Source: an uncultured Agathobaculum sp. (GTDB lineage Bacteria; Bacillota; Clostridia; Oscillospirales; Butyricicoccaceae). Taken from it: a stretch of DNA of 64,000 nucleotides. Shown here one piece after another: positions 13,043 to 20,193 of the stretch. A program made the translations under genes and the position numbers. The stretch is taken from the NCBI RefSeq assembly GCF_944380975.1, contig NZ_CALWJK010000001.1, forward strand, positions 86,249 to 150,248, given 5' to 3'. Below the pieces are notes generated by a model. The model saw nothing but the letters and a program-made list of their open reading frames with translations. It made no database searches and had not been told where the DNA came from. Every line of letters begins with the position of its first letter. Within the stretch, counting starts at the first letter, position 1.

Positions 13043-13072
13043 TTGCCTTTCGCCTGCGGGATGCCGTATACT
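13043..13072 (+). promoter_or_regulatory. Promoter of the DUF4317 gene
   Basis: TTGCCT at 13043-13048 and TATACT at 13067-13072 with an 18-base spacer, giving a leader of about 45 bases. Confidence 0.5.
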
Positions 13073-13123
13073 AAGACGGAAGATCATCGGCCCGCACAGG
13101 GCGCAGAACAGGAGAGAAGCAAC

Positions 13124-14374
13124 ATGAATATCACCAAGGGCGATGTGCTCGAGCTGCGCCGCCGCTTGAAAAAGACCGAATGCACCTTCGGACGCATGTG
13201 CGGCTGTTATGTCAACAGCGGCAAGCAGGTGGTGCTTAAATTCAGCGAATCCTTTTCCGAACTGGAAGAGGACGAGTTTTATAAATATCTGGAGATTGCT
13301 AAGAAAACGCTGTCCGGTACGCTGGGCAGCAATCTGCTCGAACTGGAGTTTGACCGCAGCGAATCTGCGGCAGAGCATCAGAAGTATCTGCTCGCGCTCA
13401 AAGAGAGCAAGTTGGGGAATGAGGAATTGCTTGATCGGCTGTACGAGCAGATCATCGCGGAGTATGCGTATCCGGGCAACTATCTGATTTTGGTATATCA
13501 TGATATTTACGATGTACCATCTAAGGCGACCTCAGGTGAGGAGCAGGACGAATCCGAGGAGATTTACGAGTACATACTTTGTGCCATCTGTCCGGTCGAG
13601 CTGTCCAAGCCTGCGCTTGGCTACCGTGAGGACGAAAACCGCATCGGCGCGCGCGTGCGCGACTGGGTGGTCGGTCTGCCTGATCTGGGCTTTGTTTATC
13701 CGGCGTTTGCAAACCGCGGCAGCGATGTCAACGCTGTGATGTATTATGTCAAAACCGGCAAAAGCTCACACCCGGAACTGGTCGAGCAGGTGCTCGGCTG
13801 CGTGCCGCAGCGTACGGCGGCGGAGGACAAGCAGGCATTCCGGAGCGTGGTGCTGGACGCCTTCGGAGAGGATGAGGAGCAGGCGGATGCCGCCTTTTTC
13901 CAGATCCAGAAAACCATCAGCGGTATGGTGGCCGAGCGGGAAGAGGACGAGTCCCTGCCGCCGGTCAGCCTGACGGCGGAAACGCTGTCCGGTCTCGCCA
14001 CCGAAGCGGAGGTGCCGGAAAAGGTGCGCGAATTGATGGAAAAAAGCTATACGCATGTGTTCGGCGATACGCCGCCGGTGGCGGATAATGTGCTGGACAG
14101 TAAACTGGTCGAGGAAGGCACAGCCCGTGCCCATACCGCGGCGCTCGAGCAGAAGGTAGCGGTTTTGCAGCAGGAGCTGGCCGCGCAGGCGGCGCAGCGT
14201 GTCGATGCGGAGGATGATGCGCCGTGGCGCGAGGATGCAGAAATCGAGCTGCATGTGCCGCAGGAACGCGCAAGCCGCATCCGTGCGGACGTGGTGGATG
14301 GGCAGAAGTGTCTGCTCATTCCGCTTGAGGAAGGCGAGCATGCCCGCATCAACGGTGTGGAGCAGCCGCTGTAA
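13124..14374 (+). CDS. DUF4317 family protein
   Basis: A 416-residue soluble, acidic protein. The N-terminus (MNITKGDVLELRRRLKK, then CTFGRMCGCYVN) is typical of DUF4317 proteins, which occur widely in Clostridia and have no established function. There is no signal peptide or membrane helix. A Gln/Ala/Glu-rich helix near 345-375 looks like a coiled coil. ATG 13124 is chosen because GGAGAG lies about ten bases upstream and it gives the family start. The gene is bounded by its own promoter and a terminator, so it is monocistronic and its neighbours give no clue to its job. Confidence 0.8.
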   Translation: MNITKGDVLELRRRLKKTECTFGRMCGCYVNSGKQVVLKFSESFSELEEDEFYKYLEIAKKTLSGTLGSNLLELEFDRSESAAEHQKYLLALKESKLGNEELLDRLYEQIIAEYAYPGNYLILVYHDIYDVPSKATSGEEQDESEEIYEYILCAICPVELSKPALGYREDENRIGARVRDWVVGLPDLGFVYPAFANRGSDVNAVMYYVKTGKSSHPELVEQVLGCVPQRTAAEDKQAFRSVVLDAFGEDEEQADAAFFQIQKTISGMVAEREEDESLPPVSLTAETLSGLATEAEVPEKVRELMEKSYTHVFGDTPPVADNVLDSKLVEEGTARAHTAALEQKVAVLQQELAAQAAQRVDAEDDAPWREDAEIELHVPQERASRIRADVVDGQKCLLIPLEEGEHARINGVEQPL

Positions 14375-14471: not shown

Positions 14472-14501
14472 TTGAATGTGGTGGGGAAAGTGTGCTATAA
14501 T
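14472..14501 (+). promoter_or_regulatory. Promoter of the rRNA methyltransferase gene
   Basis: TTGAAT at 14472-14477, an 18-base spacer, and extended -10 TGCTATAAT (TATAAT at 14496-14501). Confidence 0.65.
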
Positions 14502-14534
14502 GCCAATATCTAAGGTTTTTTGGAGCGTAGGAAT

Positions 14535-15308
14535 ATGGCTGATATAAAAAACAAACGCCGTCCCCCGCGGGAGGACGACGGTACGCTGATCGAGGGCCGC
14601 AATGCGGTGCTGGAAACGCTGCGCGCGGGGCGTGCGGTGGACAAGGTTTTTGTGGCTGAGGGTGCGCGCATTGGTGATGTGGCAGCGGAAGCGCGGCGAC
14701 ATGGCGTGCCGGTGGTCACCTGTGACCGCCGCAAGCTCGATCACATGAGCCCGACCGGCAACCACCAAGGTGTGATCGCACAGGCGGCAGCACAGGAATA
14801 CGTTTCGCTCGACGATATTTTCCGCGTGGCGGAAGAGCGCGGTGAGGTGCCGCTGATTGTGGTATGTGACGGTATCGAAGATCCGCATAATCTGGGCGCG
14901 ATCATCCGCTCGGCGGAAACGGCAGGCGCGCATGGTGTGATTATCCCCAAGCGCCGCGCGGTCGGTCTGACAGCGGCGGTAGCGCGTGCGGCGGCAGGCG
15001 CGTTGGCCTATGTAGGCGTGCACAAGGCGAACAACCTTGCCGCCACGCTTGACGAGATGAAGGAGCGCGGCGTATGGCTATTCGGTGCGGAGGCCGATGG
15101 TACGGTTGGGCTGTATGAGGCGGCGTTTGACCGTCCCACAGCGATCGTGATCGGTTCGGAAGGACAGGGCCTCAGCCGTCTGACGAGAGACAAATGTGAT
15201 TACATTGTCAGCATTCCGATGCGCGGCCGGGTCAATTCGCTGAATGCATCCAATGCGGCGGCAGTGCTGCTGTTTGAAGCGGTGCGCCGTCGGACGCAGG
15301 CCGATTAA
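14535..15308 (+). CDS. rlmB: 23S rRNA 2'-O-ribose methyltransferase RlmB (SpoU/TrmH family)
   Basis: Methylates the ribose of a guanosine in 23S rRNA (G2251 in E. coli numbering) using S-adenosylmethionine. The 257-residue protein has the N-terminal RNA-binding domain of RlmB (IEGRNAVLETL). The knotted SPOUT fold carries motif 1 (DPHNLGAIIRSAETAGAHGV), motif 2 (IGSEGQGLS) and motif 3 (IPMRGRVNSLNASNAAAVLL). GGAG lies nine bases before ATG 14535; a TTG at 14520 would add five residues and is less likely. A second, shorter SpoU methylase is encoded at 36154. It probably shares its transcript with the large membrane protein that starts 21 bases later. Confidence 0.88.
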   Translation: MADIKNKRRPPREDDGTLIEGRNAVLETLRAGRAVDKVFVAEGARIGDVAAEARRHGVPVVTCDRRKLDHMSPTGNHQGVIAQAAAQEYVSLDDIFRVAEERGEVPLIVVCDGIEDPHNLGAIIRSAETAGAHGVIIPKRRAVGLTAAVARAAAGALAYVGVHKANNLAATLDEMKERGVWLFGAEADGTVGLYEAAFDRPTAIVIGSEGQGLSRLTRDKCDYIVSIPMRGRVNSLNASNAAAVLLFEAVRRRTQAD

Positions 15309-15329: not shown

Positions 15330-17654
15330 ATGGACAGAAAAGACGAAACCATGAATCTGGAAGCGATCAAGGCAATGCTCAGTGACGTACCGGATGGGGA
15401 TGAGTTCGATCTGGATTCGATTATCGCTGAGGTAGAGGGCGGCACGCCGGCGCCATCGCGCCATGTGCCCCGCTCTGAGCCAGTGACTTTCCGAGCGGCA
15501 CCGGAGCAACCGGCACCCAAAGCAGAGCCACCTAAGGCAGCGCCGCGGGTACATGTGCCGGAGCCGGAAGTGCCGAAGGCAGTGCCGGTACAGGCGGCAG
15601 CGGCTGCACCGCAGACGGCGCCGCGTACCGCACCGAAAAAGCGTGCGCCGCGCAGGGGCGAATCCGAAGAGGAGCAAATTCCCGATCTGACCGCTTTTGA
15701 GGAAACGGAGCAGGATGAGCGCGCGGCGCGCATTGCAGCGCGCGAAGCCAAAGCAGCCGCTCGTCAGGAAAAAGCAGCTGCCAAGGCAGCAGCCCGGCAG
15801 GCGAAGCGAGAAGCAAAGCTGGCAGCCAAGCAGGCTGCGGAAGCCGAAGAGGAATTTGATGATATTCCGGATCTGCCGGAGGAAGATATACCCGAGGAGA
15901 CGGCTTCTTCCAAGCATGCAGGGCGCGGCGTGAAAATGACGCGCAAGGAAGCCCGCGCGGCGCGCATTGCGGCCGAGCAGGCGGAAGAGGAAGAGGAAAT
16001 CCAATTGCGAGATCCGGCGCAGGCGCAGCGTGCATTCAAGCGGCGCGCGCAGGGCTTATCCGCGCGTTCGATCGTCGTGCTGATCCTTGCGATTGCTGCG
16101 ACATATCTCAGTCTTGCGCCCAGCATTGAAGTGCTGCCGATTCCGGTGGCGATTGATGTCGTGGAAAATCCGACGATTGGCATCGGCATCTTGCTGCTGC
16201 TGCAATTCATCGCACTGTTTGTCGGCATTGATGTGTTCGGCATGGGTTTTTACAATTTGCTGCACGGTATGCCGGACCGCGCTTCGCTGGTGTCGTTTGC
16301 CATCCTTGCAGCGTTGCTGCACGGGGCGTCTATCATCGTATTTGACAACCAGTCCGGTGTGCAGATACCGTATCTGGCGGTCAGCATTTTGCTGTTGTAT
16401 GCGGCCATGCGAGAGGAACGCGGTCGATTTGCCGCGCGTGCCCGCGCGTATCAGGCGATTTGCTCGGCGGAGCAGCCCGCGGCGATTTACAGCCATTATG
16501 ATGCGGAGGACGATGCCTGCCGTGCAGTTAAGGGACCGCTGCATGCGGAAAAAGCATTTCTGACCGAAATGGAGCGTCCTGACACTGTGGACCGCTTCTC
16601 CATGATCTATGTACCGGTTGCGCTGGCGGCTTCGATCATTTTTGCCTTGCTGGCTTCGGTTGGACGTGGGGAGCCGGTGCGTTTCTTCTGGGCGTTTTCC
16701 GCTATATTGTCGGTTTCTGCGCCGCTCGGCCTGATTTGTGCATTTGGCGCAAGCTATAAAAATGTATCCCGCCGTTTGCTGGCTTCTGGCGCGGCGATTG
16801 CGGGTGCGCGGCAGGCCAATCTGCTGCGCGGCACAGAAGAAGTCGTGCTGACTGAGAACGATCTGTTCCCGTCCGGCTCGATCAGTCTGGAATCGTTGCA
16901 GAACATGGGGCGCTTGTCGGATGATAAGGTGCTTGCCTGTGCGGCAGCGCTGGCGGATGCGGCCGGTTTGGAGCTGGGCCGTGTGCTGACGGATGCCACG
17001 CGCGAGCGCTACGGCGTGACGCTGGCGGCACGCAACGTGCAGGAAGTGGAAGGCGGCCTGACGGGCGACATCGGCACCAGCCGCGTGGTACTGGGTACGG
17101 CGGCGCTGATGGTCAAAATGGGTATTCGCATCCCGTCCGGTCAGGGTGAGCAGGTCTGCTCGTATCTGGTAGTGGATAACGCACTGGCGGGTGTGCTCAC
17201 GCTGCGCTATCAACCGACCAAGCATACTTACCGCGCTATGCGCATGATACGCCGTATGCATATGAATGCGGTGTTGGCGGTGCGGGACTTCAATATCTCT
17301 CCCGCGATGGTAGAGACAGAGTTCGATTTGCGTCGCGGCTTTGCTGACCAGCCTGAGCCGGCTGGCGTGACGCGGCTGCTCGATCCGAACTACTCCAATG
17401 GAGATGCACCCGCTGCTATTCTGACGCGCGAAGGAGCGGGGGCGTTTGTGCAGGTGCTGCGCTGTGCAGACAAGCTGGCTGGTGCGGTGCGCTCCGCATT
17501 GACGCTGGGTGCATTCGCAGGTGTTTGCGGTATGCTGATCGTTGCGTATCTGGTATCACAGAATGCAGCGGACGCACTGCCGGTGACAAATTTGTTGCTG
17601 TATTTGCTGTTGTGGTATATTCCTGTATTCATTATCACACAGCAAACGCATTAA
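15330..17654 (+). CDS. Large membrane protein resembling a catalytically dead P-type ATPase
   Basis: A 774-residue protein. Residues 1-240 are a low-complexity cytoplasmic region: Pro/Ala-rich to about 105, then Lys/Ala/Arg/Glu-rich with coiled-coil character. Helices follow near 244-264, 282-302, 316-336, 346-360, 424-444 and 452-472. From 424 the order matches P1-type ATPases: DRFSMIYVPV, then SAPLGL where metal pumps have a Cys-Pro-Cys helix, then a segment like GARRGILIKGGEALE. The phosphorylation motif DKTGT is replaced by TENDLFPSG (508-516); VEGGLTGDIG and VVDNALAGVL resemble the N and P domains, and VRDFN replaces TGD. The actuator TGES loop is missing. Two C-terminal helices close it. 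It is therefore unlikely to hydrolyse ATP in the normal way. Confidence 0.65.
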   Translation: MDRKDETMNLEAIKAMLSDVPDGDEFDLDSIIAEVEGGTPAPSRHVPRSEPVTFRAAPEQPAPKAEPPKAAPRVHVPEPEVPKAVPVQAAAAAPQTAPRTAPKKRAPRRGESEEEQIPDLTAFEETEQDERAARIAAREAKAAARQEKAAAKAAARQAKREAKLAAKQAAEAEEEFDDIPDLPEEDIPEETASSKHAGRGVKMTRKEARAARIAAEQAEEEEEIQLRDPAQAQRAFKRRAQGLSARSIVVLILAIAATYLSLAPSIEVLPIPVAIDVVENPTIGIGILLLLQFIALFVGIDVFGMGFYNLLHGMPDRASLVSFAILAALLHGASIIVFDNQSGVQIPYLAVSILLLYAAMREERGRFAARARAYQAICSAEQPAAIYSHYDAEDDACRAVKGPLHAEKAFLTEMERPDTVDRFSMIYVPVALAASIIFALLASVGRGEPVRFFWAFSAILSVSAPLGLICAFGASYKNVSRRLLASGAAIAGARQANLLRGTEEVVLTENDLFPSGSISLESLQNMGRLSDDKVLACAAALADAAGLELGRVLTDATRERYGVTLAARNVQEVEGGLTGDIGTSRVVLGTAALMVKMGIRIPSGQGEQVCSYLVVDNALAGVLTLRYQPTKHTYRAMRMIRRMHMNAVLAVRDFNISPAMVETEFDLRRGFADQPEPAGVTRLLDPNYSNGDAPAAILTREGAGAFVQVLRCADKLAGAVRSALTLGAFAGVCGMLIVAYLVSQNAADALPVTNLLLYLLLWYIPVFIITQQTH

Positions 17655-17660
17655 AACATA

Positions 17661-17699
17661 AAAAAGCAGGTCTGGATTTTCATCCAGACCTGCTTTTTT
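17661..17699. terminator. Bidirectional terminator after the pseudo-ATPase gene
   Basis: A 16-base stem (AAAAAGCAGGTCTGGA with TCCAGACCTGCTTTTT) with a short loop and T runs on both strands. It can end the gene to the left and the minus-strand peptide gene to the right. Confidence 0.88.
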
Positions 17700-18108: not shown

Positions 18109-20193
18109 ATGGCCAATTACCCGGTTAATAAGATTCGTAACGTATGTCTGATGGGACACGGCGGCGACGGCAAGACCTCGCTCGTCGAAAGTATGCTGTA
18201 TATCGCCGGTGTAACCGATCGTGTCGGCAAGATCACGGACGGCAACACGGTTTGCGATTTTGACCCCGAAGAAATTAAGCGTCAGTTTTCGATTTCTACG
18301 GCTGTCGCACCGATCGAGTGGAACGGCTGTAAGATCAATTTGCTGGATACGCCGGGCTTCTTTGATTTTGAAAGTGAAGTCAATTGCGCCCTGCGTGTAG
18401 CGGAATCCGCACTGATTATCGCCACCGGCAAGTCCGGCCCGGGTGTTGGCACGGAAAAAGCGTGGGAGCGCTGCGAGGCGCGCGCGATGCCGCGTATGTT
18501 CTACATCTCCAAGATCGATGAGGAAAACTCGGATTACTATACCTCGCTGCATAAGCTGCAAAAGCAGTTCGGCGTATCGGTTGCGCCGATCGTGGTGCCA
18601 ATTTTCGAAGGCAACCGCGATACTGTCGGCATTGTGGACTGCGTGATCCGCAAGGCATACCGCATGGAAGGCAACAAGCGCGTTGAGATCCCGATTCCGG
18701 ACGATATGAAGGAGCGTATCGACCAGCACCGTGCAGCGCTGTGTGAAAACGTAGCAGAACTTTCCGAAGAGCTGATGGAGCGTTATTTCGCAGGCGAGGA
18801 GTTCTCGGATGAAGAGCTGATCGCCGGCATCCGTCAGGGCGTTAAGGATTTGGTCATCGCGCCGGTATTCTGCGGCACTGCGGCAACCGGCATCGGTTCC
18901 TATGCACTCTTGAAGGGCATTGCAGACTACATGCCGTCCCCGGATGAAAAGCCGGTCGAGATCTGCGAGGATGAAAAGGGTGAGCTGATCGAGATCAACT
19001 GCACGCCCAACGGTTCGACCTGTGCATTTGTATTTAAGACGGTCGCTGACCAGTACGGTCGCTTCTCGTATTTCAAGGTCATGTCGGGCGAAGTTAAGCA
19101 GGATATGACGCTGGTTAACAAGCGCGCAGATGCTAACGAGAAGATGGGCCACATCTACACGGTCTGCGGCAAAAAGACCACCGAGGTTCCGGTGGTTGGC
19201 TGCGGCGACATCGGTGCGGTTTCCAAGCTGGTCACCACCAAGACCGGCGATACGCTCTCCATGAGCGTGCGTAAGGTGGAGCTCGAGCCGATCGAGTTTG
19301 CGCCACCGGGATATACGAACGGCAGTGCACCTAAGGTCAAGGGTGCGGAAGAAAAAATCTCTGCTGGTCTGGCGCGTCTGCATGACGAGGACCCGTCCTT
19401 CGAGACTGAGTTCAATCCGGAAACCAAGCAGCATACCATTTCGGGTGCAGGCGACATTCATCTGGATGTCCTGTGCGCCAAGCTCAAGGATAAGTTCGGC
19501 GTTGAGGTGCAGCTGACTGCGCCGATCGTACCGTACCGCGAGAAGATCCGCAAGCCGGTGACGGTCGAAGGCAAGCATAAGAAGCAGTCCGGCGGCCATG
19601 GACAGTATGGTCATGTTAAGATGGAGTTTGCTCCGTATCCGGAAGGCGATTACCTGTTTGAGGAGAAGATTTTCGGCGGTTCTGTTCCGAAGAACTTCCA
19701 TCCGGCGGTTGATAAGGGTATCCGTGAGGCGATGGAGCATGGCGTGCTGGCAGGTTATCCGATGGTTGGCCTGCGTGCAACCCTGCTCGACGGCTCTTAC
19801 CATGATGTCGACTCCAACGAATTGTCCTTTAAGATGGCAGCGCGTCTGGCGTATAAGGCGGGTATTCCGCAGGCAAGCCCGGTGCTGCTCGAGCCGGTCT
19901 GCTCGATGAAGGTTGTCATTCCGGATGCGTACATGGGTGATGTAATCGGCGATCTGAACAAGCGCCGTGGCCGCATTATGGGTATGAACCCGATCGAAGG
20001 CGGCAAGCAGGAGATTCTGGCAGAGTGCCCGATGGCAGAGCTGGCTGACTACGCGATCACGCTGCGTTCGATGACGCAGGGCCGTGGTTCGTTCGTTTCC
20101 AACTTTGAGCGTTACGACGAAGCGCCCGCACAGGTGCAGGAAAAGGTCATCGCGGAGAACAAGGCGAGACTGGAAGCTCTCAATAAGGAATAA
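18109..20193 (+). CDS. EF-G-like translational GTPase (EF-G2 type paralogue)
   Basis: A 694-residue homologue of elongation factor G with all five domains, but with altered GTPase motifs. G1 is GHGGDGKT (16-23) instead of GHIDAGKT. G3 is DTPGFFDF (80-87), so the catalytic His of DTPGHVDF is replaced by Phe84. G4 is SKID (134-137) in place of NKMD. Later domains are recognisable (GAGDIHLDVL near 446; GGHGQYGHVKMEF near 493). These changes fit the EF-G-like group (EF-G2), not the housekeeping FusA, which normally sits in the rpsL-rpsG operon. Its exact role is unsettled. It is alone between its own promoter and terminator. The start follows AGGGGAG with about 11 bases of spacing. Confidence 0.88.
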   Translation: MANYPVNKIRNVCLMGHGGDGKTSLVESMLYIAGVTDRVGKITDGNTVCDFDPEEIKRQFSISTAVAPIEWNGCKINLLDTPGFFDFESEVNCALRVAESALIIATGKSGPGVGTEKAWERCEARAMPRMFYISKIDEENSDYYTSLHKLQKQFGVSVAPIVVPIFEGNRDTVGIVDCVIRKAYRMEGNKRVEIPIPDDMKERIDQHRAALCENVAELSEELMERYFAGEEFSDEELIAGIRQGVKDLVIAPVFCGTAATGIGSYALLKGIADYMPSPDEKPVEICEDEKGELIEINCTPNGSTCAFVFKTVADQYGRFSYFKVMSGEVKQDMTLVNKRADANEKMGHIYTVCGKKTTEVPVVGCGDIGAVSKLVTTKTGDTLSMSVRKVELEPIEFAPPGYTNGSAPKVKGAEEKISAGLARLHDEDPSFETEFNPETKQHTISGAGDIHLDVLCAKLKDKFGVEVQLTAPIVPYREKIRKPVTVEGKHKKQSGGHGQYGHVKMEFAPYPEGDYLFEEKIFGGSVPKNFHPAVDKGIREAMEHGVLAGYPMVGLRATLLDGSYHDVDSNELSFKMAARLAYKAGIPQASPVLLEPVCSMKVVIPDAYMGDVIGDLNKRRGRIMGMNPIEGGKQEILAECPMAELADYAITLRSMTQGRGSFVSNFERYDEAPAQVQEKVIAENKARLEALNKE

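Follow-up and report, generated by a model that had tools for sequence, protein, structure and literature searches.

The window, by which we mean the whole 64,000-nucleotide stretch of DNA that was analyzed, contains on its forward strand an open reading frame (ORF) of 774 codons (15330 to 17654) with an ATG start and no internal stop. Named relatives, the closest at 97% identity, place the host genome in or near Agathobaculum (NCBI family Butyricicoccaceae), and the order, which our comparison reports just as “same order,” is one that we take to be Oscillospirales in GTDB naming. The ORF begins 21 bases past the stop codon of rlmB (14520 to 15308, forward strand), the gene for the 23S rRNA G2251 2′-O-methyltransferase (TIGR00186, E = 5.7e-66, above cut-off). 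A consensus scan placed a candidate promoter upstream of rlmB (14472 to 14501, forward strand; TTGAAT-18-TATAAT with a TG before the second hexamer, 10/12). Directly after the stop codon of the ORF lies a strong hairpin of 18 pairs whose stem contains runs of A and T (17660 to 17699). It is listed on the reverse strand only; given a T ending on the forward strand, read from the stem sequence, it is probably a terminator. The stretch holds seven promoter-like and nine terminator-like sites, compared with 1.8 and 3.7 in shuffled sequence. Between the hairpin and an EF-G-like gene (18109 to 20193) are about 400 bases with no evident gene, and a DUF4317 protein is encoded upstream of rlmB (13043 to 14374; Pfam E = 9.9e-120).

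When the ORF was searched alone, the heavy-metal P-type ATPase model TIGR01525 matched residues 418 to 649 with an E value of 4.5e-9, at a score of 35.7 bits that is far below the membership level set by the model cut-off of 346. The Pfam model E1-E2_ATPase reached an E value of 0.008, below its cut-off, and a search of the PDB with the single ORF sequence returned no ATPase, the best match (E = 0.0083) being a fimbrial subunit that we took as chance. Among 33 family members, 21 reached TIGR01525 at an E value of 0.01 or better. We built a profile of the family from 33 relatives (A2), whose rows were picked after DKTGT-bearing matches had been set aside and which is therefore possibly circular with respect to motif loss. 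Compared with the PDB, A2 matched Legionella CopA (LpCopA, 3rfu) with an E value of 8e-30 in three colinear blocks: profile positions 18 to 152 with CopA 80 to 217, 194 to 465 with 335 to 613, and 476 to 547 with 656 to 727. The significance comes from the middle block, comprising M3-M4 and the P/N head, and the flanking blocks have independent E values of 1.1 and 110. The part of CopA between the first two blocks (218 to 334) is presumably the actuator domain, and that between the second and third (614 to 655) includes GDGxND. Aligned by hhalign with six genuine pumps, A2 gave a probability of 99.7 across its columns 196 to 522. The initial annotation, made from the DNA alone, had called the locus a pseudo-P-type ATPase and had proposed a comparison with CopA; the reading frame is real, the likeness to P1B pumps lies above chance in both the TIGR01525 and the 3rfu matches, and the comparison with CopA holds at the level of the profile.

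Hydropathy analysis indicated eight transmembrane helices, at approximately residues 240 to 271, 277 to 308, 317 to 340, 342 to 360, 422 to 448, 451 to 476, 719 to 747, and 749 to 773, with overlapping windows split by eye. Their order is four, two, the head, and two, as in P1B ATPases, as read from hydropathy and block order rather than from a confident structural model. Helices 1 to 4 (residues 240 to 360; 16047 to 16409, forward strand) correspond to MA, MB, M1, and M2 according to hydropathy, the weak block to 3rfu 80 to 217, and a second profile described below; helices 5 and 6 (residues 420 to 476; 16587 to 16757, forward strand) correspond to M3 and M4 in the 3rfu block, the joint alignment, and hydropathy; and helices 7 and 8 (residues 719 to 773; 17484 to 17648, forward strand) correspond to M5 and M6 by hydropathy and the third, weak block to 3rfu 656 to 727. 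The second profile (A6), restricted to helices 1 to 4 and the loop after them, was meant to be family specific. It also retrieved genuine pumps in many genomes, at lower scores than family members, indicating that the first half of the protein is pump derived too; members and pumps were separated in A6 searches by coverage of the end of the profile. The likeness to a pump, first placed from residue 424 onward, thus begins near residue 240, where the first four helices resemble MA, MB, M1, and M2. From these sequence comparisons, we conclude that the protein is descended from P1B heavy-metal ATPases.

AlphaFold, run on 18 same-genus sequences, modeled the core with a mean pLDDT of 47 and a pTM of 0.28 and the head alone with a mean pLDDT of 53 and a pTM of 0.42. 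Block means above 70 were confined to the N-domain (residues 531 to 625; 16920 to 17204, forward strand), the best-modeled part, with block means of 50 to 81 overall and of 71 to 81 over residues 534 to 593. Since the models were poor overall, the membrane fold rests on sequence. A Foldseek search with the head model (mean pLDDT, 53) gave eight matches with E values of 0.001 or lower, all of them P1B ATPases or domains thereof, and ranks 1 to 34 of the best 50 listed were all P-type ATPases (best E = 4.1e-5). As modeled, the N-domain fold is P-type-like. A preserved fold had been proposed for the whole protein; this applies to the N-domain, but the aligned members have lost both the actuator domain and the GDGxND strand, and little else exceeds a pLDDT of 70.

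We next considered the catalytic elements across the family. In total, 92 rows scoring above 200 bits corresponded to 69 distinct sequences and 67 genes, matched by their C-terminal 200 residues, and none of the 69 distinct sequences carried DKTGT, TGE[SPT], or GDGxND. Of 26 rows below 200 bits, 23 had both DKTGT and GDGxND and were pumps (one a fragment), and three were pieces of family genes: the second piece of L071, a piece of L048 at a contig end, and the first piece of L066. The lowest-scoring member reached 230.3 bits and the best nonmember 190.0, a gap that was not imposed by the choice of rows. We then aligned 46 members jointly with 22 pumps. Because DKTGT, GDGxND, and a CPx motif were the criteria for picking the pumps, these three are not independent in the contrast between the two groups, whereas TGES and SEHP are. 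The actuator segment had a median length of 36 residues (29 to 56) in members versus 109 (109 to 110) in pumps; in the window gene, its place is taken by a short cytoplasmic loop (residues 361 to 419; 16410 to 16586, forward strand), and the TGES loop, previously noted as gone, has no counterpart in the ORF. The GDG region had a median of 23 residues (17 to 25) in members versus 55 (55 to 59) in pumps, and the GDGxND columns were gapped in all 46 members. The His of the N-domain SEHP motif was found in none of the 46 members and in 22/22 pumps.

Other sites are substituted. SAPLGL (residues 463 to 468; 16716 to 16733, forward strand) lies at the CPC metal-binding columns of M4, where 34 of the 46 members keep the Pro, three have Cys at the first position, none has it at the second, and most substitutes are hydrophobic or small. 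TENDLFPSG (residues 508 to 516; 16851 to 16877, forward strand) occupies the DKTGTxTxG phosphorylation site. The commonest letters on the DKTGT columns are T, D, N or S, D, L, and then F and P; [DE]x[DE] occurs in 33/46 members, [FY]P in 40/46, and both together in 27/46. An Asp stands on the DKTGT Asp column in 11 of the 46, so that loss there is not uniform, and eight of those 11 have no acidic residue after it. VEGGLTGDIG (residues 573 to 582) is the N-domain GxG region, of which the second Gly is present in 45/46 members and the first in 13/46. All three assignments, which the initial annotation had made, fell on the matching alignment columns. It had also read VRDFN (17280 to 17294, forward strand) as a replacement of TGD; the motif is indeed changed at the place of TGDN, but its Asp is retained (D653), as it is in 42/46 members. 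The missing motifs, the missing N-domain His, and the lack of any intact CPC in the columns counted make a strong case that phosphorylation and transport have been lost, as proposed, and the protein would be expected neither to form a phosphoenzyme nor to pump. We accordingly rejected an active pump on account of the missing elements (actuator domain, DKTGT, GDGxND, CPC, and the SEHP His).

The N-terminal tail (residues 37 to 239; 15438 to 16046, forward strand) is of low complexity and highly charged: A, E, K, R, P, D, and Q make up 80% of residues 41 to 240, and 38% of these residues are charged. It had been described as 240 residues of charged repeat, which is correct for its composition (residues 41 to 240), but a tandem-repeat structure was rejected because Tandem Repeats Finder reported no arrays; Pfam reported no heavy-metal-binding domain in the tail. 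In the first gene part of L066, a distant relative, the tail contains near-perfect AKAAAE repeats. Ahead of the tail is a short motif, FDLDSIIAEV (residues 26 to 35; 15405 to 15434, forward strand), with the family form [FY]x[LIVT][DE]xI[ILM]xE[VFIYLA]. This strict form was present in 39 of the 59 members with an available N terminus and absent from 20, some of which show looser forms, such as MSVDDILEEL, as judged by eye. Among 2,577 mechanically called ORFs from the window and the loci, the motif occurred at the N termini of family members or their pieces only.

Comparison of the window gene with nine relatives gave whole-gene dN/dS ratios of 0.04 to 0.19 (nine pairs), indicating purifying selection, although dS exceeded 1 in several pairs and the ratios of distant pairs are therefore rough. 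The ratios were 0.00 to 0.06 for helices 5 and 6 and 0.02 to 0.21 for the P/N head. Residues 1 to 40, including the short motif, gave 0.00 to 0.09 (seven computable pairs) versus 0.11 to 0.35 for residues 41 to 225 (nine pairs); the former were below the latter in all seven pairs with both values, and residues 41 to 225 were the region of highest dN/dS in 9/9 pairs, in two of which residues 1 to 40 were not computable.

The family gene was detected in 70 of the 73 sampled genomes of the order: the host genome itself (1/1), 23/24 of the same genus, 12/12 of the same family, 22/23 of a first sample of the order, and 12/13 order members in a sample of the class. Two members of that first sample (G046 and G059) were found by profile only. 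Two other genomes, G014 (90% complete) and G389 (99% complete), had neither the family gene nor an RlmB-grade match (best, 3.0e-17 and 2.8e-19), which an assembly gap and joint loss fit equally; in G040 (55% complete), just 226 bases separate the end of rlmB from the first base of the contig, on the side where the family gene would come next. Two distantly related genomes have the gene broken into two reading frames (L066:4164-6560 and L071:5221-7448). In 373 genomes of the class outside the order, no full-length match was seen, the best reaching 1.0e-54 (G304) versus 5.2e-78 for the weakest member in the same search; this holds among the matches listed and the best few candidates scored per genome, so that highly divergent members outside the order may have escaped notice. 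The 13 best class matches from outside the order (L101 to L113) all had DKTGT, TGE, and GDGxND. With A6, 17 of the 18 genomes that the class sample contains from the order matched at 8.5e-33 or better up to profile position 192 to 194, and among the matches listed from outside the order, none extended beyond position 180 or was better than 3.0e-26. In a sample of 348 genomes of the phylum, just the five members of the order reached the end of A6 among the matches listed. Viral contigs yielded 6 and 5 pattern matches and no relative.

A quick tree of 68 rows had a branch with an SH-aLRT support of 100 that set all 46 members apart from the 22 pumps, subject to a long-branch warning and with one member (L076) joining next to the pumps. 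A single origin of the family is therefore not rejected by the sequences, nor is it proved, because the root of the tree is unplaced; we infer one loss event, ancestral to the order. The initial annotation had held that relatives with an intact DKTGT would mark this copy as mere decay. That objection fails. Sequences with DKTGT exist, but none of them exceeds 190 bits while every member reaches 230 or more, the branch between them has a support of 100, and purifying selection acts on the gene.

The initial annotation had also suggested looking for conserved homologues beside rlmB, and their presence was confirmed. We examined 67 distinct loci, 11 of which could not be judged for want of upstream sequence. 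In 54 of the 56 testable loci, rlmB was on the same strand and no more than 250 bases upstream (55 when counting L066, where it is 1,107 bases away with the first of the two gene fragments in between). The one exception to the pairing is L061 (from G037), with no rlmB within 5 kb upstream; the family gene stands behind an Obg-type GTPase gene, and a different contig carries rlmB. The commonest coordinate difference between rlmB and the family gene was 22, equal to 21 bases from stop to start, as in the window; the few negative distances result from mechanical start choice. Beyond these 67 loci, the G046 and G059 genes are also beside rlmB by coordinates. Outside L061, the pairing could be inherited gene order. 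While rlmB is the steady neighbor across loci, the downstream gene varies and includes EF-G-like, Era-like with RecO, YebC, radical SAM, SpoIID-domain, isopropylmalate-type dehydrogenase, family 3 glycosidase, and nitroreductase genes, among others. The EF-G-like gene, a second translation-related neighbor besides rlmB, is downstream in many, not all, relatives, and of the 17 loci from the same genus or near it that have about 4 kb or more of upstream sequence, 14 carry a DUF4317 gene ahead of rlmB. A metal operon context was rejected, since the downstream gene varies and none of 20 annotated neighbors (four without a Pfam match) was a metal-transport gene; FeoB_N matches among neighbors were GTPase-domain overlaps in Era- and Obg-type proteins.

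Based on these results, we favor, with a probability of roughly 0.55, the reading that this is a nonpumping family derived from P1B ATPases that now serves as a membrane scaffold or receptor. The new role that the initial annotation had suggested, such as a membrane scaffold or sensor, is thus plausible. Here, the former pump core would form a membrane platform, the flexible tail would recruit a soluble partner through the N-terminal motif, and the N/P head, in which an acidic loop closing with [FY]P has taken the place of DKTGT, would act as a ligand- or protein-binding module. Because the gene is paired with rlmB, a ribosome- or RNA-related partner would be the first candidate. A bolder version, which we regard as a long shot, is that, in the order's ancestor, an ancient metal pump was emptied of its catalytic parts in a single event and became a noncatalytic membrane receptor whose tail docks ribosomes or the RNA-modification machinery encoded on a transcript shared with RlmB, while its head senses a ligand; if true, this hollowed-out receptor would tie translation to the membrane.

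An unlikely competitor to the scaffold or receptor reading is a regulatory pseudo-subunit that pairs with, or titrates, genuine P1B pumps of the same cell. Its core helices are homologous to those of pumps, and 25 of 26 tested order genomes, drawn from the 70 with the family gene, hold a P1B pump above the TIGR01525 cut-off (the exception, G031, shows partial matches in an assembly that is 76% complete). The same was true, however, of 13/14 control genomes, so that co-occurrence is uninformative, neither for nor against, and the lack of metal-transport genes among the annotated neighbors weighs against pairing. The host genome itself has five P-type ATPase matches above the Pfam cut-off in all, and two genuine ones lie about 3 kb apart (G000:C20:31958-35915). 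It is improbable that the old pump helices form a passive or secondary-coupled path for an ion or metabolite without ATP drive: purifying selection on the helix regions is compatible with such a path, but the CPC site has given way mostly to hydrophobic or small residues, and the tail and head would be left unexplained.

Phosphotransfer may instead have been kept or regained, with [DE]x[DE] serving as a DxD like that of HAD phosphatases in a membrane phosphatase or minimal switch. The frequency of this acidic pair, the 11 members with an Asp on the DKTGT Asp column, and the widely retained TGD Asp speak for this idea. The gapped GDGxND columns, the missing TGES, and the missing SEHP His speak against it, as does the first acid, which is Glu rather than Asp among the same-genus loci listed, and we consider it very improbable. 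Simple decay of a pump gene, to which the lost catalytic motifs and the split genes in L066 and L071 might point, is hardly credible given the low dN/dS, the window gene free of internal stops, and the near-universal presence in the order; selection, spread, and clade together rule out a decaying gene.

Few membrane machines have been studied as well as P-type ATPases, and the surprise is a widely conserved, constrained branch of them without an actuator domain, phosphorylation site, or metal site. In the literature searched, which mostly excluded subscription papers, we found neither an order-wide bacterial P-type ATPase pseudoenzyme nor a paper on this family. Because it occurs in nearly all order genomes sampled and behind rlmB in nearly all testable loci, the gene is credibly a core gene of the order, and it cautions against naming such proteins ATPases on partial similarity.

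Among known systems, the family is most directly compared with the P1B ATPases (CopA and ZntA/CadA; 3rfu), with which it shares the helix order, the colinearity of M3-M4 and the P/N head, the N-domain fold, and, in most members, the TGD Asp and the metal-site Pro of M4. It differs from them in lacking the actuator domain, DKTGT, GDGxND, CPC, and SEHP, in having a low-complexity tail in place of metal-binding domains, and in its partner gene, rlmB. With the HAD superfamily it has in common the descent of its P-domain and an acidic loop resembling what we take to be motif I, whereas the strand of motif IV, as we number it, is deleted and the nucleophile column holds an Asp in just the minority of members noted above. 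Pseudoenzymes in general include pseudokinases and pseudophosphatases, and like these, the family has lost its catalytic residues while remaining otherwise conserved and constrained.
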